Positions 6,269 through 64,000 of a stretch of DNA of 64,000 nt are shown one piece after another. The translations under genes were made by a program, and so were the position numbers. The notes beneath the pieces were generated by a model, which saw only the letters and a list, made by a program, of their open reading frames with translations, was not told where the DNA came from and made no database searches. Origin of the DNA: Acorus gramineus (Eukaryota > Streptophyta > Magnoliopsida > Acorales > Acoraceae); assembly GCA_030737835.1 (NCBI GenBank), contig CM060854.1, forward strand, positions 10,225,272 to 10,289,271, written 5' to 3'. The number at the start of each line of letters is the position of its first letter. Position 1 is the first letter of the stretch.

Positions 6269-6735
6269 GGGGCCCGATGGGGTGCGCCCGTGCGCACGGT
6301 GCACCCCATCGTGCGCCCCGTTTTTAAAAAAAAAAAAGTGAAAAAAAAGAAAAAAAAAAGACGTCGACGATCGCGACTGCACCGACCCCGTCACCCCCGT
6401 CGACGACTGCACCGACCCCCGTCGCCCCCGTCACCCCCGTCGACGACTGCACCGACCCCGTCGCCCCCGTCACCCCCGTCGACGACCCCCGTCGCCCCCG
6501 TCACCCCCGTCGTCGCCCCCGTGCGATCGACGACTGCGATGGGGTCGGCGACCCCCGTGCGATCGTCGCCCCCCGTGCGATCGCCGACCCCCGTCGTCGC
6601 CCCCCGTCGTCGCACGAGGGTTTTTTTTTTGTTTTTTTTTAAAAAAAACGTCGACCGTGCGATCGACGAGTACGGTCGACGTACGGGGGCGCACGAGGGG
6701 TGCACCGTGCGCACGGTCGCACCCCATCGCCCCCG
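6269..6735. mobile_element. GC/CpG-rich MITE inserted in a TA repeat
   Basis: The ends are inverted: left GGGGCCCGATGGGGTGCGCC, and right in reverse complement GGGGGCGATGGGGTGCGACC. Each is followed by the shared CGTGCGCACGGTGCACCCC. The core is made of CGTCGACGACTGCACCGACC-type units and CCCCCGTCGC repeats between A and T runs. Open frames here (Pro/Arg/Val repeats) are products of the low-complexity core. TA on both sides suits a TA-targeting (Tc1/Mariner or Stowaway-like) insertion, by inference only. Confidence 0.7.
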
Positions 6736-7432: not shown

Positions 7433-8816
7433 ATGTCTCGTAATCGTTTTCTCCATATGGTTCTTAAAGATGAACAAGGTGCTAACGAGTATGGAATGTT
7501 ATAAGCAATGGCGGCAGTTGAAGAACAACAACGGGCTAACGAGAGACATACATCACGTCGTCTTGGTTCTGTTTTGGGCCACGCGGCCATTCAATGTGGC
7601 AAAGTTCAAGATCACGAAAGACTTTATCGCGACTATTTTGCTGAAACGCCTGTATATCTTTCACATCCATTCCGGAGGAGATTTCTAATGAATCAATCTC
7701 TTTTTTATCGGATTCAATCTACGATGAAAAACCACTATCCTTATTTTGTTTAAAGAAGGGATGCTTCTAGAATTGTCAGTTTATCTTCACTTCAAAAGGT
7801 TATTGCCGCTCTGAGGATGCTTGGTTATGGAGTATAAGCAGATTTTGTAGATGAGCACGTGGAGATCAGTGAAAGCACCTCCATAGAGTCTTAAAAGATT
7901 TGTTAAAACATTTGTTACAATGTTTGGCAATGAGTATTTGAGGCCACCAAACAATGCTGATATTACTAGATTGTCAGAGCTTGGCGAACAATGTGGCTTC
8001 CCTGAGATGTTGGAGAGCATTGATTGTATGCATTGAAAATGGAAAAATTGTCCAATTGTGTGGCATGGGATGTATACTGGTCATGTTCATAAACCAATGA
8101 TTATTCTGGAAGTGATGATGTTGGGGAGCATTGATTGTATGCATTGGAAATGGAAAAACTGTCCAATTGTGTGGCATGGGATGTATATTGGTCATGTTCA
8201 TAAACCAATTATTATTTTGGAAGTGATAGCTTCATATGATCTTTGGATATGGCATGCCTTCTTCGGGTTACCTGGATCTTTTAATGACATTAACGTATTA
8301 GACCAATCTTCTGTTTTTGCTGAACTAAATGAAGGACGTGCTCTTCCCGTCCGGTATTCAATTAATGGTCACGAGCACACAATGGATTATTATCTCGCTG
8401 ATGGTGTATACCCCTCATGGTCAACGCTTGTAAAAACAATTCCATCTCCATAAGGAAATAAGAGAAAACACTTTGTTGTAGCTCAAGAGTCAGCGAGTGA
8501 GCATTTGGGGTGCTTCATGCACATTTTGTGATCTTACATGGACTGGCACGGTTTTTGGATCAAGAAACACTGAAAAATATTATGACAGTGTGCATAATAA
8601 TGAATAATATAATAATGGAATATGAGCGACATGCAGACCAGTTCAACTTCAACTATGATTCAATTGATGAAATTCCATCTGTGTCGGTGTTTCATGAGCA
8701 TACACCTGAATTACTTGAATTTATTCAAACCCATCATCTCATCAAAGACAGACAAACTCATTCTCAACTTCAATCAGATCTTGTCGAGCACATGTGGAAT
8801 CTACATGGTGGAAATT
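7433..8816 (+). pseudogene. PIF/Harbinger transposase, broken
   Basis: The frame reads in pieces. An N-terminal part has RLYRDYFAETPVYLSHPFRR (ATG at 7433, with a stop before a second ATG at 7508). Next come LSSLQKVIAALRMLGYGV and FVTMFGNEYLRPPNNADI. The SIDCMHW motif with the first catalytic Asp follows, then SYDLWIWHAFFGLPGSFNDI with the second acidic residue, and a C-terminal FLDQETLKNIMTVCIIMNNI. Three or more stops interrupt it. The region that should hold the final catalytic acid (DVERAFGV in relatives) is shortened to AFGV. The first catalytic block is duplicated. It would encode a nuclease that cuts at element ends, but this copy cannot be active. Confidence 0.85.
8007..8228 (+). repeat. 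In-frame 111-bp tandem duplication within the transposase relic
   Basis: 8007-8117 and 8118-8228 are near-identical and encode the same 37-codon block around SIDCMHWKWKNC. In the first unit the middle Trp codon is TGA. Later relatives have only one block, so this is a local duplication in the dead copy. Confidence 0.9.
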
Positions 8817-8989
8817 AGAAAGTATTTCCTAATAAGTATTTAGAAAGTATTTCCTAAGTTATTTATTGCATTTGTAATTTATGTTCTTAGGAGGGCCATG
8901 TAATCATAAGATAGATTGTCATTTTTCCAAGTACAATACAACATAATTAAAATTACAATATAATTAAAACTACTACAAAACTACATCTA

Positions 8990-9963: not shown

Positions 9964-10969
9964 ATCTACACAAAAACAATTAAAATAAATTAATAAAAAT
10001 AATACTTGAAAAAATAAAATGATTACAAATGAGAAATTCAGATCAAATGTAAAACTTAGAGAGAGAAAAAACCTTAATTTTGGAACAATAAAAATTGTAG
10101 ATTGAGAGTGTAAAAATTGTATGGATGAGGATGAGGTATATAAATAGAGAAAAATCCATTGAGATATATAGCCGTTACAGTATACATACAAAAACAACTT
10201 TTTATTTTTTTTTAACTTTCTGTGGGACCCGTCAAAATTCAAATGAAGAAAAAATATTATTTTTAATTTTTTTGGAAGTGGGAGCCACATCTGGGAGCTC
10301 TTCATCGTCTCCCTCATTTATTGAGCTTCCATGCTTGTCCACCCTAAATGTTGAGCGACGAGAGCCGGTTGGAGTAGCTTTTCTTCCCACGCTTATTGGA
10401 TTGAACGATGGAGCTGAATTATTCGGCCCCCTTGGAGATGCTCTTACACATGATCGACCGCCATAATGTCTGTGAATACAATTCCTTTGGTCTCTCTAGT
10501 GGAATGCTCTCAATTGGATTTTGCCACTACTAACTACTTCAATGAAGATTTTGAGATACAATAATGATTCTTGGGCCCCAATTGGTAGACCCCATACTAA
10601 GCCCCATGAGGTGGCAAGTGTGAATTTCCTACATTACCCCCCTTCTTTAATTCCCGTAAATGAAGGATCCCATAACCGGTCCTATAATTACGAGATTAGT
10701 TACGATTCGGAAATCACTTCTTCTCTCTCATAAACATCAAATTTTTTATCAACGGATTGTGGGAACGAAAACAAACATCAATTTTTTGTTTTCATTCGTA
10801 TATTATCGGCGGAGAAGAGAAGACAAAAAAGAAACTTGTTTTTTATTCTGTGCGATCTGTTTGTGGTGCAAAATATCAGGTTAGGCCAATCCGAACCCCC
10901 AAAAATTGACGATTTAGAATTTGCAGATCCAGTTTTATTTGTGAAACTGAAAACAAACATCGTAATTTT

Positions 10970-11815
10970 TTTTTTAGTTTGATCGGTTGAGACTATAAGA
11001 TTTTTTACACGGTTGTGGTGGAAACAATGGCGATCCATTCAGGTTAGACTGTTTTAGATCTGAATAATTTACATTGTATTGATTTTTGAATAGTTCATTT
11101 GACTTTAAATTAAGATACATGGTGTGTATCTTAATTCTGTTGGTGAGAGTTAAAAGCCTACCTAGTATTTGTTTTTTATTTTTCAGTTTGATTGGTCGAA
11201 AATATAAGATTTACACGGTTGTGGTGGAACCAATGGCGATCCATTCAGGTTAGACTGTTTTTAGATCTGAATAATTCAATTTGATACGATTTTTTTCACT
11301 GTCCCTTTGAACCATCGTATTCTTTAAATTAAGATACATGGTGTGTATCTTAATTCTGTTGGTGAGAGTTAAAAGCCTACCTAGTATTTGTTTGTTTTTT
11401 TTCAGTTTGATTGGTCGAAAATATAAGATTTACACGGTTGTGGTGGAACCAATGGCGATCCATTCAGGTTAGACTGTTTTTAGATCTGAATAATTCAATT
11501 TGATACGATTTTTTTCACTGTCCCTTTGAACCATCGTATTCTTTAAATTAAGATACATGGTGTGTATCTTAATTCTGTTGGTGAGAGTTAAAAGCCTACC
11601 TAGTATTTGTTTTTTTTTTTTCAGTTTGATTGGTCGAAAATATAAGATTTACACGGTTGTGGTGGAACCAATGGCGATCCATTCAGGTTAGACTGTTTTT
11701 AGATCTGAATAATTCAATTTCATACGATTTTTTTCACTGTCCCTTTGAACCATCATATTCTTTAAATTAAGATACATGGTGTGTATCTTAATTCTGTTGG
11801 TGAGAGTTAAAACAA
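10970..11815 (+). repeat. Tandem array, about 219-bp unit, four copies
   Basis: The landmark ACACGGTTGTGGTGGAA recurs at about 11007, 11213, 11432 and 11651 (spacing 206, 219, 219). The last three units are nearly identical. Each unit ends in an inverted pair, TTAAGATACA then TGGTG then TGTATCTTAA, able to form a 10-bp stem. The element copy at 60.9 kb has a single diverged unit, so the array expanded in this copy. Confidence 0.9.
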
Positions 11816-11958
11816 ACCTAGATGTGTATCTTAAATTAAGATACATAGATGTGTATCTTGATGTTGTTTCCAGGTTAATTTGAAGTTTGATTTATTATCT
11901 ATATGGATTTGATTAATGCTTAATTGATTAATATTCAATTGTTCACTCGCCTTTCAAG

Positions 11959-12057
11959 GTTCGAAGTAAAGGACGACCACCGTCAAGAAGGAAGGCACCC
12001 AAAGTGTATAAGCCGAGAAACAAGAAGGCGAAAATACCTGAAAGCTCTAATTGTTAG
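11959..12057 (+). pseudogene. FAR1/MULE transposase-like C-terminal exon remnant
   Basis: After an acceptor-like CCTTTCAAG, 32 codons read VRSKGRPPSRRKAPKVYKPR and so on to a TAG stop. The VRSKGRP-type basic stretch resembles the C-terminal tail common in FAR1/FHY3-related proteins, which descend from Mutator-like transposases. It is probably all that remains of the parent element's transposase, or part of a second gene. The assignment rests on this short motif only. Confidence 0.45.
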
Positions 12058-12254
12058 TAGGTTGTATTGGGCTTTTTGATTTTCTCCATTGTACAACACA
12101 TTTGATGTCAATGTGTTCTGTGAATGTGTTTTCACTATTTTCTCAAAGTGTGTAGGTTTTTATTTTATGTTTTAAGATACATTTTATGTTTTCAGGTACA
12201 TCACATTTTATATACACATGACAGTATAGATTCAAATCATTCTGTCTTCTGACA

Positions 12255-12775
12255 TTCAGGTTTTCAGATACAGTGTGTAAAATTCAGATACATACACAAT
12301 TTAAGGATCAATCTTCTGTCTTCTAACATACAGGTTTTCAGATACAGTGTTCAAAATTCAGATACAGCACACATCTAGGCAATAAGCTTGCACTTAATAT
12401 GTGAAAGACATACACAATTTGTTTTGATTCAATTGAATTAAGATACAGTGTGTAAAATTCAGATACATACACAATTTAAGGATCAATCTTCTGTCTTCTA
12501 ACATACAGGTTTTCAGATACAGTGTTCAAAATTCAGATACAGCACACATCTAGGCAATAAGCTTGCACTTAATATGTGAAAGACATACACAATTTGTTTT
12601 GATTCAATTGAATTAAGATACAGTGTGTAAAATTCAGATACATACACAATTTAAGGATCAATCTTCTGTCTTCTAACATACAGGTTTTCAGATACAGTGT
12701 TCAAAATTCAGATACAGCACACATCTAGGCAATAAGCTTGCACTTAATATGTGAAAGACATACACAATTTGTTTG
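12255..12775 (+). repeat. Tandem array, about 175-bp unit, three copies, rich in CAGATACA
   Basis: The landmark GATACAGTGTGTAAAATTCA recurs at about 12268, 12442 and 12617. Each unit carries four AGATACA-type motifs. Units two and three are almost identical. Confidence 0.9.
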
Positions 12776-13433
12776 GCAAACAAATTCATGTATATGAAGT
12801 TAGATTTGTATGTATTACTAAAGAATAACTGATTAATTTCAGATACACCATTAAGAAATACAAACCTGTTCATATTGCTAAAAAAATAAAATTAATTCCA
12901 CCAAAATGAGTTTGTCTTTCACTTTCATGTATCTTAAACACTGATTTCTTCATATTGCTAAAACAATAAAAATTAATTTCAGATACTATATGTTTGTTTT
13001 TCAGATTCACGTATCTGAAATATTTCAGATACAGTTCTTTGTTCGAATAACTCATTCATGTATCTGGAACTGATTAGTCTCACATTTTTCACAATGAAAT
13101 TCACAGATTTTTAGTGTAAGATGTGCAATATATCAATGAAGAGTCGTCGTTTTAACAGAAAAAAAAAAGTCGTCAAAGAAGAGTCGATCGTGGGAATTAA
13201 TGGTTTCCCCATTTGTGGAATTCGGTTACTTTGGGGAGAGGAATTAATGGTGCCCCAATTTGTGGGATTCGGTTACGATTTTAATGAGAATATTAATGAT
13301 AAGGGTAGTTGTGTAATTGGCCTTTTGGTGGTTAGAAAAAGTCAAACATTGGACCAATAGGATTATGCCACCTATTGGGGCTCAACAATGGGGCCTAATT
13401 TTTGGGGCCTGGGTAGCAGCACTGTTTGAGATA

Positions 13434-60329: not shown

Positions 60330-60871
60330 ACAAGAAAAATATGCTATTGTATCTCAGTATATACTTCATTTTGTATACCAACATGTATTTCAATGGGCCG
60401 AAGAGTGTATGATTTTTTTTAAAAAAAAAAATGTGTGGGCTGTGGATGGGACTACATTTGGGGCGCTGGTCATCATTTTCTGTGTAGATGAGAGGCATCC
60501 GTGGTGTGAATGCATGGTATATTGTTTTGGATGTTGAAGAAGACGATGAAACAAGGGTATTTTAGACTTTTCAAACATTTTTAATGGTTTAAATGAGATT
60601 TCAGTGGTCATAGCACAACGGTTCAGGGTTCACCGATAAATTCTGGGTTTGAGTCTTGGTGCTGACTTACCCACTTGTTTGTTGGCGATTATTCAAAAGA
60701 ATTTTCTGTGGAACCGAGGCAAACAGGCGGAGGTAGCCTTCCCAGCTCGACCGTAAATAATAAAAAAAAAAACATTTGACCTAAGCTCACAGAAATTGAC
60801 TGTAAGGGCACTGATGCACAACTTATGAAATTTTGATTTATATAGGGGTATTTTGACAAAAAAAAAACATA
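60330..60871. repeat. Dispersed repeat interrupted by a SINE
   Basis: 60330-60480 resembles 50080-50225. 60500-60605 and 60770-60871 match 33060-33540 on either side of the SINE, giving an empty-site comparison. Confidence 0.65.
60606..60768 (+). mobile_element. tRNA-derived SINE, copy 2
   Basis: Starts GTGGTCATAGCACAACGGTT, B-box-like GGGTTTGAGTCTTG, then ACTTACCCACTTGTTTGTTG and GGCAAACAGGCGGAGGTAGC, ending in an A run. It is the same family as 4009-4201. The unoccupied site near 33110 reads continuously across the insertion point. Confidence 0.8.
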
Positions 60872-63641
60872 CAATAATGATTTTTAGGCCCCAATTGATA
60901 GACCCCATCCCAAGCCCCATGAGGTGGCAAGTTTGAAATACCTATATTACCCCCCTCCCTAATTAATCGTTTTAGTATTCCATAACCGCCCCATTAATCC
61001 CGAGGTAGTTATGATTTGTGATATCTTTCTGTTTTTGAATATTTATTTTCAATTTGACGTCAAAAAAATTCACGATTCTCCATTTCTGATTTGTGAATAA
61101 TCGGTTGATAGGAAAACAAATATGAATTTCATTTTTTATTTAGATCTGGTTGGTGTATACGAGGTGAATTCAAGATTTTTTTTTCTGTGCGATCTAATTC
61201 TGGGGCAAAAAGAAATTGATACATCCATGTTAGGTTTTTTCGGATCCCAAAAATTACAATATTTTACGATTTTTTAGTTTTCAGATGGATTTGAAAACAA
61301 ACATCGAATTTTATTTTTGTTTCAGTTCGATCGGTGGAGAAGAGAAGAATTTGATTCATTTAGTTTTAAGTGACCAGTTTATGGTGCAAACAATGGCGAT
61401 CTATTCAGGCTAGTCCTTTTTCGATCTGAATAAATTATGTTGATTTTGATTTTTCGTTATTCCTTTGAATCATCATATACATGTATTGAATCTGAATTTA
61501 ATTTTAAATTCAGATACATGGCCTGTATCTTGATTTATATGCATTGTTGTGTACCAGGTATTATCTGTACAATCGTTTTATGATTGTGTGTTTGTGTATA
61601 ATTATGCATAATGTGTCATTCATGATATTTTTTAGCTTTGTATCAGCATTATTCGACTCATTCAAATTTAAGATTTTCAAATACAGTGCACATTCACTTG
61701 TATTGAATGTGTATTCGATAATTCAAATTCCAGATACACCTGTATCTGAATTTGATATCTAACCCATTTTGATGGTTGTTATTTATATTTTCATGGATTT
61801 AATTGATGTATAGCTGATTAATATTTAATTACTTATTGTTGGTATTTTGAAGACCTTTTATGAATTTTCTGTGCAGTGCTCAGTAGCATATAGGCCATAA
61901 TTGTACATTTGGATTTTCAGATACATTACTGTATCTTAATTTAATAATATGTGGTTGATGTTCTAAGTTTTCACCAGGCAGTGATGGTGATTTTATGGAG
62001 GACACATGCGAAGACTCAATTCATTTGGATGACATCAATCATTCATGTTCTGTGAAAACCAATTGCCGAATGAATTATTTGTTGTGGCTGGTCAGCAAAA
62101 TATATACGAGATACAACTTGTTTTTGAAGATGCGCAAATCGCGGCAACAAAAAAAACTACTGTGAAGCTTTAGAAACAAGTTGATGAACATAGTTGATCA
62201 ACATGTTTTATACAACAATTTCAGATATAATTGATTCAGATACATAAAGTGTTTACAAAAACATTAAGATATTTTCATCAAGGGATTATGTTTTATAGAA
62301 CATGAATACAACATTTCAGATACAGTTGAGTAAAAGCTCTTTTTCTTGTAGTGCAAATTATAAGTTTGAAGATATTAATACACTATATATTTTGATTCAC
62401 GGCACATACAACTTCTTAATAGCATGTAATGTGACTAATGGGATCTCTATTTCTCCATAATTACTCCAGATTCAGATATTTTTGGTTAACAGGTTTTCAG
62501 ATACAGATACAGTTGATTCAGATACATACATTGTTTACAAAACATTAAGATATTTTCATCAAACCGATATATTCTAATTATCAAATATAAGACAATAATA
62601 CATGATCTACATTTATATGACATTTCAAGCATATCATTTGATTATTTTCAATTGCTCATTCAATCAGATTTTGTTTCACTGAATTAAGAAACAGTTACAT
62701 ATTATATACATTTTCAGATATATGTCTTTGATATATGTATTCGTTCATCAGTTTTTTGTTTCCTCAAAAAATGAACTGTGTACACGAGAAACCCTAAAAC
62801 AATTGAAAAATGTCAATTTTTTTCCTTTAATCTAGATACATTGGTAGACAAAGACAATGTAGCAGAAACAATTTCGTTATATATTTGAGATTTAGCACAT
62901 GCTTCCAAACCTAAAAAAAAAATTCAGATTTTGTTTGGATTCAGATACATGTACTTGAAACACTAATTTCAAACTAATCTTTTTTAGATTTCAGATGCAC
63001 GTATCTGAAACACTGATTTTTCAAATGGATTTCAGATTCAATCAGATTAACAGGAGACCAGAAAATGGAAGGGAATCGTTTCATATTTAATTTTGAAAAT
63101 CAGATATTTTGTCTTATAAGAAGTACAAAAAATTAATCTAGATTGATTTGTTTATATCGCCAAAAAAAAAAAAAAAACCGCGACGGTGAAGTTTCGATTG
63201 TGGCAAGAAATCTAACATTTTTTTTTGCCATTGTTGACGATCTGTTTGGGGAAGAGAATAGGATGATATGAACTTTTCATAGTCGATTTTTTTTTTGGTT
63301 CGTATGGTTTTGCCCAATTTGGAAACCCTAAGTTTTAAATTTTTTTTGGGAATATGTTCAGACGGGGGAGAGGATTCAATGATCCCCCCTTTTTTGAGAT
63401 TCTGTTACGAGGATTAATGATGAGGAGAGGATTCAATGATCCCCCATTTTTTAGGGATTTCATTACGAGCATTAATGTTGATATTAGTTAGTTAGAGCCA
63501 ATTTTTAAAAATCTTAGAAGGGTAGTCATGTCATTGTCATTGTGGTGGTTTGAAAAAGTGAAACAGAGAACCAATAGGAGAGTGCCACCTATTGGAACTC
63601 ACCAATGGGGCCTAATTTCTGGGTCCCAGGTAGCAGGACTG
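60872..63641. mobile_element. Mutator-like element, copy 2 (about 2770 bp)
   Basis: Same ends as copy 1: left CAATAATGATTTTTAGGCCC, right in reverse complement CAGTCCTGCTACCTGGGACC, with CCAATAG...GCCACCTATTGG blocks near the right end. ACATACAATAAT occurs on both sides, so the target duplication and left border are ambiguous by a few bases. The interior is AT-rich with about fifteen AGATACA/TGTATCT motifs but without the tandem arrays of copy 1. No transposase was found. Confidence 0.78.
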
Positions 63642-64000
63642 ACATACAATAATATAACAGGGGTATATATGCAAAACAAAACCCATTTTTATTTTATCGA
63701 TGAATATGGGTGTGGTTCATTTATTTTATTCTATTTTATTTATTTTATTATTAAAAATAATTCATTTGGATTAAAGGGGTTGAACATCATATTATTTTAT
63801 TTTATTTATTGGGTGTTTTTTTAGATTTATTAACATATTATATTATTTTTAAATTTTATATTCACGCAAATCGTGCATGGGTGAAGATTAGTATATTATT
63901 AGTTTTCTCCCACCCACAATGTGCATGTAAATAAAAATATATTTTGAAAAAGCTGCCCATAACCAATACTCTCAATGTTTTTCAATTCATTTATATGCGA
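63642..64000. other. Right edge, AT-rich, nothing recognised
   Basis: TTTTATTTTATT-type low-complexity sequence, with no gene. Confidence 0.5.

Follow-up and report, generated by a model that had tools for sequence, protein, structure and literature searches.

A window of 64,000 bp from the Acorus gramineus genome (the whole stretch of DNA analysed here, C8:10225272-10289271 of a 398.6 Mb assembly) contains two shortened transposons, copy 1 and copy 2, that are densely populated with the short motif AGATACA. An initial annotation had described them as a Mutator-like pair, and the structures found here agree. Both are deletion derivatives of a FAR1/Jittery-type Mutator-like element (MULE), with terminal inverted repeats (TIRs) and target-site duplications (TSDs) that could be placed, and the DNA that they retain is largely motif-bearing and non-coding. 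The boundaries originally given for copy 1, 10559-13424, proved exact, with TTTGAGATA on both flanks. The features of the two copies, in window coordinates, are the following.

10550..10558, no strand: left TSD of copy 1, 9 bp, TTTGAGATA, identical to 13425-13433
10559..10616, + strand: left TIR of copy 1 (CAATAATGATTCTTGGGCCCC...), about 58 bp, imperfect; from the left/right end alignment in long copies, inner border by eye
11103..11812, + strand: array 1 of copy 1, 219 bp x 3.2, in the 5' non-coding part; from repeat analysis
11971..12057, + strand: remnant in copy 1 of the last 28 codons of a FAR1-type transposase (...GRPPSRRKAPKVYKPRNKKAKIPESSNC stop)
12266..12774, + strand: array 2 of copy 1, 175 bp x 2.9, rich in AGATACA
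13367..13424, - strand: right TIR of copy 1 (inward CAGTGCTGCTACCCAGGCCCC...); from end alignment, inner border by eye
13425..13433, no strand: right TSD of copy 1, TTTGAGATA, matching the left TSD
60867..60875, no strand: left TSD of copy 2, ACATACAAT, overlapping the first element bases through a presumed CAAT slip
about 60872..63641, + strand: copy 2, a non-autonomous MULE of a related subfamily, with 14 AGATACA
61998..62078, + strand: remnant in copy 2 of the transposase N-terminus (EDTCEDSIHLDDINHSC...; compare CEDSISLEDIHDAC in locus L009); placed by eye, including its end
63642..63650, no strand: right TSD of copy 2, ACATACAAT

TIRs together with a TSD of about 9 bp are as in Jittery/FAR1-type MULEs. 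The TSD is exact in copy 1, and in copy 2 it is ACATACAAT only on the assumption of a CAAT/CAAT slip at the left end. The family ends read CAATAATGATT...GGCCCC on the left and, inward, CAGTGCTGCTACC...GGCCCC on the right; in the alignments made for four related long copies, the left end matches the right end at 74-77% identity across 53 columns. The transposase remnant of copy 1 ends in the same way as the open reading frames of loci L009 and L010. Each unit of array 1 carries a facing pair AGATACA...TGTATCT, and the DNA of array 2 is intergenic, lying between both genes, in the long relatives.

A count over both strands gives 28 AGATACA for copy 1 and 14 for copy 2 (roughly thirty and fifteen had been estimated), compared with means of 0.53 and 0.49 in dinucleotide-shuffled sequence (maximum 3 of 500 shuffles in each case). 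This is a clear excess over what base composition predicts. The two tandem arrays, 219 bp x 3.2 and 175 bp x 2.9, do multiply the motif as the initial annotation had it; with copy 1 reduced to one unit per array, 14 instances are left in 2,050 bp (shuffle mean 0.32, maximum 2). The longer word CAGATACA is present 13 times in copy 1 and 10 times in copy 2. The 58,356 bp of the window outside both elements contain 14 AGATACA, near the shuffle expectation (mean 9.74, maximum 18, 100 shuffles), and thus the excess is confined to the two copies.

The motif is also present in further members of the family. Among the best 40 candidates scored in each genome search, copy 1 matched at least 127 aligned pieces and copy 2 at least 61 aligned pieces at 40 places, itself included; 19 of the 39 other copy 2 places aligned in one piece over at least 2,550 of 2,771 bp at 87-92% identity. 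All 15 further shortened copies for which both ends were placed (those with a missing or unplaced end are uncounted) are enriched, with 13-58 AGATACA against 0.30-1.14 expected and 0-1 in their flanks, so that absence from other members, which the initial annotation had named as grounds for refutation, is not what the genome contains. Two-gene relatives with AGATACA were found as well. At L024 (about 750-765; C3:9038250), two left ends of the family stand head to head with a gap of about 8 bp, representing an insertion beside the end of another copy. Loci L017 (C10:12368890) and L025 (C1:2959906) match copy 1 with the same scores along much of their own length and differ in the unit number of the second motif array, which suggests recent array growth or loss.

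The organization of the long relatives was examined in four copies of family A: C87 (14.5 kb), C43 (14.5 kb), C10 (13.5 kb) and C2 (11.1 kb taken, left end not found; its likeness to copy 1 starts about 610 bp into this sequence, at copy 1 position 485). Gene 1 encodes a transposase with a FAR1 domain (PF03101, 52.1 bits) followed by a MULE domain (PF10551, 128.1 bits), both above the Pfam cut-off. A SWIM-like C-x-C...C-x-H pattern is visible by eye in its C-terminus; a 110-aa piece of this region gave no Pfam match. Within gene 1 of both C43 and C87 (L009/L030, L010), and once more close to the C55 remnant of a plant mobile domain (PMD) gene (L047/L050), there is a G+C-rich repeat, apparently a nested mobile one, whose long spurious reading frames are rich in Arg, Ala and His in several frames.

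Gene 2 is convergent to gene 1 and sits between gene 1 and the right end. In C43 it could be modelled manually as eight exons with AG/GT borders and 825 codons without a stop, a model for which no upstream first exon was found; applied to C87, the model loses its frame in exon 3. The spliced model gave clear domains, whereas single exons gave weak Pfam matches only. The protein has a PMD (42.9 bits, Pfam cut-off 34.9), which overlaps a weak DUF1985 match, and its 225-aa C-terminal part matches Peptidase_C48 (Ulp1) at 26.0 bits (cut-off 20.7), a match not listed when the whole 825-aa protein was scanned. The nearest solved structures are SENP5 and yeast ULP1 (E 0.008); a PDB sequence search with the PMD gave no match. 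A lysine-rich (basic) stretch, a coiled coil and the Ulp1-like H-W and Q...DCG signatures were recognized by eye. PMD loci are abundant in this genome, with at least 163 PF10536 matches (117 of 1,380 candidates scored); many have open frames of about 500 aa and probably belong to other transposon families.

The long copies contain 77 (C87), 76 (C43), 68 (C10) and 63 (C2) AGATACA, of which 75, 74, 66 and 61, respectively, lie off coding DNA. The coding span, about 4.8 kb per copy, includes some short introns bridged by alignment, so that the two instances per copy that touch coding DNA are an upper figure. The claim that the motif is spread over non-coding DNA is thereby upheld. It fills the 5' region of each gene, the intergenic DNA and the gene 2 introns, and it also occurs in one gene 1 intron of less than 200 bp. 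The outermost instances are 582, 624 and 828 bp from the three located left ends (the corresponding 692 bp of C2 is not measured from an element end) and 512-522 bp from all four right ends. The wider consensus is TTT(C/A)AGATACA, and facing pairs AGATACA-N(1-6)-TGTATCT recur. Forward orientation predominates in family A; where tested (three A copies and, see below, one D locus), the intergenic motifs all point one way, and orientation is mixed in the gene 2 introns and most 5' regions. After collapsing repeats, 34 distinct contexts remain in C2 (1.45 expected) and 33 in C10 (1.84 expected), and AGATACA and its extensions rank at or near the top of all words.

We compared these elements with gene 2 relatives at graded distance (best 55 of 1,122 candidates scored); gene 2 exons have at least 199 matches in this genome. 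Two D and two E loci, with 51-63% identity to A in the coiled-coil exon and 72-80% in the PMD, keep AGATACA (67 and 33 in D, 26 and 32 in E). Clade F has the same two-gene plan and a related transposase, and uses a different word: F133 (9.7 kb core) contains 74 TGTTACA vs 4.3 expected and 2 AGATACA, and F5 contains 45 and 2, respectively. TGTTACA is absent from each of the four A and two D loci and occurs once in each of the two E loci. Only 2 of the 74 TGTTACA in F133 touch coding DNA, the coding spans being set partly by eye. Between A and F133, the transposase is 92% identical in the MULE and 78% in the FAR1 domain; the gene 2 protein is 49-59% identical in the PMD, 30% in the coiled coil, and 62% and 38% in the Ulp1 exons. 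A third word, AGTTACA, is the main variant in F55 (10 copies), L051 (4), L052 (5) and L053 (10), and L054 has 8 AGATACA; 2.5-2.6 kb was read at each of L051-L054, for which the expectation of about 0.35-0.5 comes from a word model without shuffles. F55 is a remnant with no recognizable gene 1 within 14 kb, the top 7-letter word of L051 and L052 is GTAACTA, which overlaps AGTTAC, and CACATAC scores slightly higher than AGATACA in L054. Judged by their letters, AGATACA, AGTTACA and TGTTACA form a path of single changes.

The variants are distributed according to the relationships of the proteins. On a tree of 15 PMD sequences, motif labels assigned by hand from the motif counts need 2 changes, the minimum, and the groups have supports of 100/99 (AGATACA), 80/83 (AGTTACA) and 100/100 (TGTTACA). 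None of 200 label shuffles reached 2 changes, a generous figure since near-copies among the 15 sequences make any label cluster. Certain alignment columns of the PMD tell the groups apart. The switch can also be seen at a single site. The gene 1 intron after ...EKLGR holds 2-3 AGATACA in three A copies and 1 in D_C7 and E_C5; in F133 and F5 it holds two TGTTACA, 20 bp apart. The protein upstream of this intron is conserved, and hence the word changed in place. F133 also contains two minisatellites with 20-bp units like TGTTACATTTACYCAATAGT (C133:75740-75920 and C133:79040-79230; L046, L048), one in a gene 2 intron and the other, in the opposite orientation, upstream of the first recognized gene 2 exon.

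The PMD exons are under purifying selection, with ratios of nonsynonymous to synonymous substitution (dN/dS) of 0.10-0.17 for A vs D/E, 0.10-0.11 between the two D loci, and 0.13 and 0.40 for D_C7 vs E_C5. From A to F133, where dS is high or saturated, dN is 0.056 for MULE, 0.133 for FAR1, 0.162 for the next transposase piece, 0.32-0.41 for the PMD and 0.67 for the coiled coil (94 codons). In aligned DNA, AGATACA was kept at 21 of 26 sites from E_C5 to E_C2 (anagrams of the word, 67/185), at 46 of 63 from D_C5 to D_C7 (anagrams, 113/247) and at 5 of 8 from A_C2 to D_C7 (anagrams, 9/43). Fourteen such comparisons were run. AGATACA outlasted its anagrams at p<0.05 in nine of the ten tested (tenth, p=0.067), p values that are optimistic because neither reciprocal pairs nor array units count as independent; two small comparisons, without a p value, gave 2/5 vs 3/16 and 2/4 vs 8/41, and the two for the mutual pair of copies 1 and 2 had no motif in aligned DNA.

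These data suggest a two-gene MULE whose second protein would read AGATACA, mark the element's own DNA and lift its silencing in a manner resembling VANC, a reading that we consider probable. Gene 2 is most likely the reader because the word occupies coding-free DNA, avoids the outer 500 bp or so, the region in which docking by a transposase would be expected, and is kept by shortened copies, and because it changes as a set with the faster-evolving gene 2. Long members encode the FAR1/Jittery-type transposase and the convergent protein (PMD, basic stretch, coiled coil and Ulp1-type cysteine-protease domain); in the proposed mechanism, the latter protein would bind AGATACA (TTTMAGATACA), most likely through the PMD region. 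The motif has accumulated across the parts of long and short members that do not code for protein, such that many occupied sites could mark the DNA as 'own'. If the protein acts as VANC does on the VANDAL elements of Arabidopsis, it may then lift silencing of the element as a whole, and loss of silencing over the element would be the outcome. The effector step might be SUMO removal from silencing factors by the Ulp1-type domain. The motif has diversified along with gene 2, giving AGATACA, AGTTACA and TGTTACA. A more specific version, in which the PMD itself is the DNA reader with a stepwise shift in specificity and the PMD-Ulp1 proteins of Jittery-type MULEs are sequence-addressed de-SUMOylating anti-silencers, is put forward tentatively, as somewhat less likely than not to hold in full.

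Several observations weigh against this interpretation. Genes 1 and 2 are inherited together, and therefore the PMD tree cannot separate gene 2 from gene 1. Between A and F133, identity falls to 69% in the SWIM-like part of the transposase and to 47% in the protein's last 94 residues, a level as low as that of the PMD. The AGTTACA group consists of four short or partial loci with 4-10 copies each. The DUF1985 match of gene 2 reaches at most 23.5 bits, below the Pfam cut-off of 35.1, and DUF287 is not among the Pfam matches of the protein. By eye, the Ulp1 domain apparently has Asn at the usual Asp position, which makes its protease activity uncertain. As to the word rankings, the scores of AGATACA-type words are 12.5-20 at the A, D and E loci and do not exceed 10.2 in copy 1; G+C-rich low-complexity words reach 13.1 in control 9-kb chunks of the window, so that the ranking alone is no proof. 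The G+C-rich word family CGTCGCTA scores level with AGATACA in C2, and the G+C-rich word CCGCGCGC ranks above AGTTACAT in L047. Finally, with repeats collapsed, there is no clear 10.5-bp spacing (resultant 0.16 in A, 0.29 in D/E and 0.41 in F), and other periods equal or exceed 10.5 bp in all three groups.

The initial annotation had named two possibilities, a VANC-like self-recognition code and docking sites for the transposase. The first has gained good support from the two-gene anatomy, the PMD and Ulp1 domains, the near-confinement to non-coding DNA and the variants that follow the gene 2 tree; binding and anti-silencing themselves are still inferred. The second is disfavoured. Other transposases use repeated subterminal sites, and sites read by the FAR1 domain, a DNA-binding domain, or by another part of the protein could serve to assemble the ends; the presence of the motif in short copies without gene 2 would fit, as would the changes in the SWIM-like part and the C-terminal end across the switch (69% and 47% identity). 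Yet no motif is near the ends: the distance to the outermost one is 582-828 bp at three left ends and 512-522 bp at four right ends. Many motifs are kilobases inside, gene 2 introns included. Moreover, FAR1 is 78% identical across the switch vs 49-59% for the PMD, and although the C-terminal end changed as much as the PMD, FAR1 and MULE changed less. We therefore regard docking as unlikely.

Two other explanations appear less probable still. Recognition as RNA or by a host factor, for instance through TGTA-type RNA elements or a host transcription factor, would make the word an expression signal. TGTA is indeed present on one strand of all three variants, forward orientation prevails in A and the intergenic DNA is one-sided (three A, one D), but mixed orientation in the gene 2 introns and most 5' regions, and the facing pairs, are contrary to such a signal, and a family-specific switch is not predicted for a shared host factor. 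RNA-level recognition is weakened by the orientation check, and we give this explanation little credence. It is slightly harder still to accept that the density is a by-product of tandem-repeat growth, with a satellite-like word hitch-hiking without a reader. Two arrays multiply the motif in copy 1 and the 20-bp arrays of F133 contain TGTTACA, their family's motif; however, the 34 (C2) and 33 (C10) distinct contexts survive repeat collapse, motif instances outlast anagrams, and the word switches as a set between families, also in one small array-free intron. On general grounds, a site for host GATA factors was also discounted: AGATAC does not fit WGATAR, and no GATA occurs in TGTTACA.

To judge from sequence, these elements are built like the VANC/VANDAL anti-silencing system of Arabidopsis, with a transposase of another lineage. 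Shared features are a MULE with a transposase and a separate extra gene, a short motif that is dense in non-coding DNA and further amplified by tandem repeats, motif variants among related families that follow the extra gene (here not separable from gene 1), and a transposase more conserved than the extra gene. Non-autonomous VANDALs take part in VANC anti-silencing. Sasaki et al. 2022 reportedly surveyed eudicots and may cover related elements. In the available accounts, VANC proteins carry DUF1985 and DUF287, and the VANA transposase is much more conserved (PMC5735166, PMC10398659). VANC21 binds YAGTATTAY (Hosaka et al. 2017, PMC5735166; Sasaki et al. 2023, PMC10398659); the VANC6 motifs AGTTGTCC/AGTTGTAC were derived from methylation loss, with in vitro binding to a motif-dense region (PMC5735166, PMC10398659). 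In contrast, the motif here is AGATACA/AGTTACA/TGTTACA, gene 2 encodes a PMD and an Ulp1-type domain with DUF1985 weak and DUF287 not listed, and the elements have a FAR1-type transposase and clear TIRs of about 58 bp, unlike the degenerate or missing TIRs of VANDAL. For VANC, anti-silencing has been demonstrated; for gene 2 it is a proposed role.

Both domains of gene 2 have precedents in plant transposons. ULP genes adjoin Jittery-like transposases in melon and grapevine and were described as transduplication (Kaonashi; PMC2528002). As here, an Ulp1-like gene lies beside the transposase, there in either orientation and with Jittery-like elements included; the consulted part of that source names no target motif. 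In the elements described here, a PMD is part of the protein too, and a motif varies together with it. The PMD adjoins several MULE groups, with 'PMD and/or DUF' in half of the VANDAL members, and for Jittery-group plant elements the portion consulted gives FAR1 and one ORF (open reading frame), with no PMD (PMC6446971). Host PMD proteins MAIN/MAIL1 act in silencing (PMC5418596, PMC7156037); anti-silencing by MULE-captured PMDs has been speculated upon, in an account that describes PMD function as still to be determined (PMC5418596). Our elements likewise have a PMD gene beside a MULE transposase, and differ in the motif that accompanies it, no cognate motif being described in the accessible sections of these reports (PMC5418596, PMC7156037, PMC6446971). 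A limited literature survey, of sources available in part, found no report of a cognate motif or anti-silencing for FAR1/Jittery-type MULEs.

Sequence-specific anti-silencing by a transposon is known from the VANDALs of Arabidopsis; if the proposed role of gene 2 is true, a second MULE lineage, with PMD and Ulp1 domains, would suggest that self-addressed anti-silencing is a more general strategy. The ULP and PMD genes so frequent on plant transposons would also gain a proposed function open to experiment, and the PMD-Ulp1 anti-silencer version, if correct, would give these long-puzzling genes a common function. Three natural motif variants with matching protein variants make the recognition code directly testable.

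Elsewhere in the window, a stretch resembling a PIF/Harbinger-type transposase fragment (...SIDCMHWKWKNCP...) was recognized by eye at 8000-8830, with a 111-bp direct duplication at 8006-8227 within it. A G+C-rich minisatellite with CCCCCGTCG-type units and several nested periods occupies positions 6374-6613.

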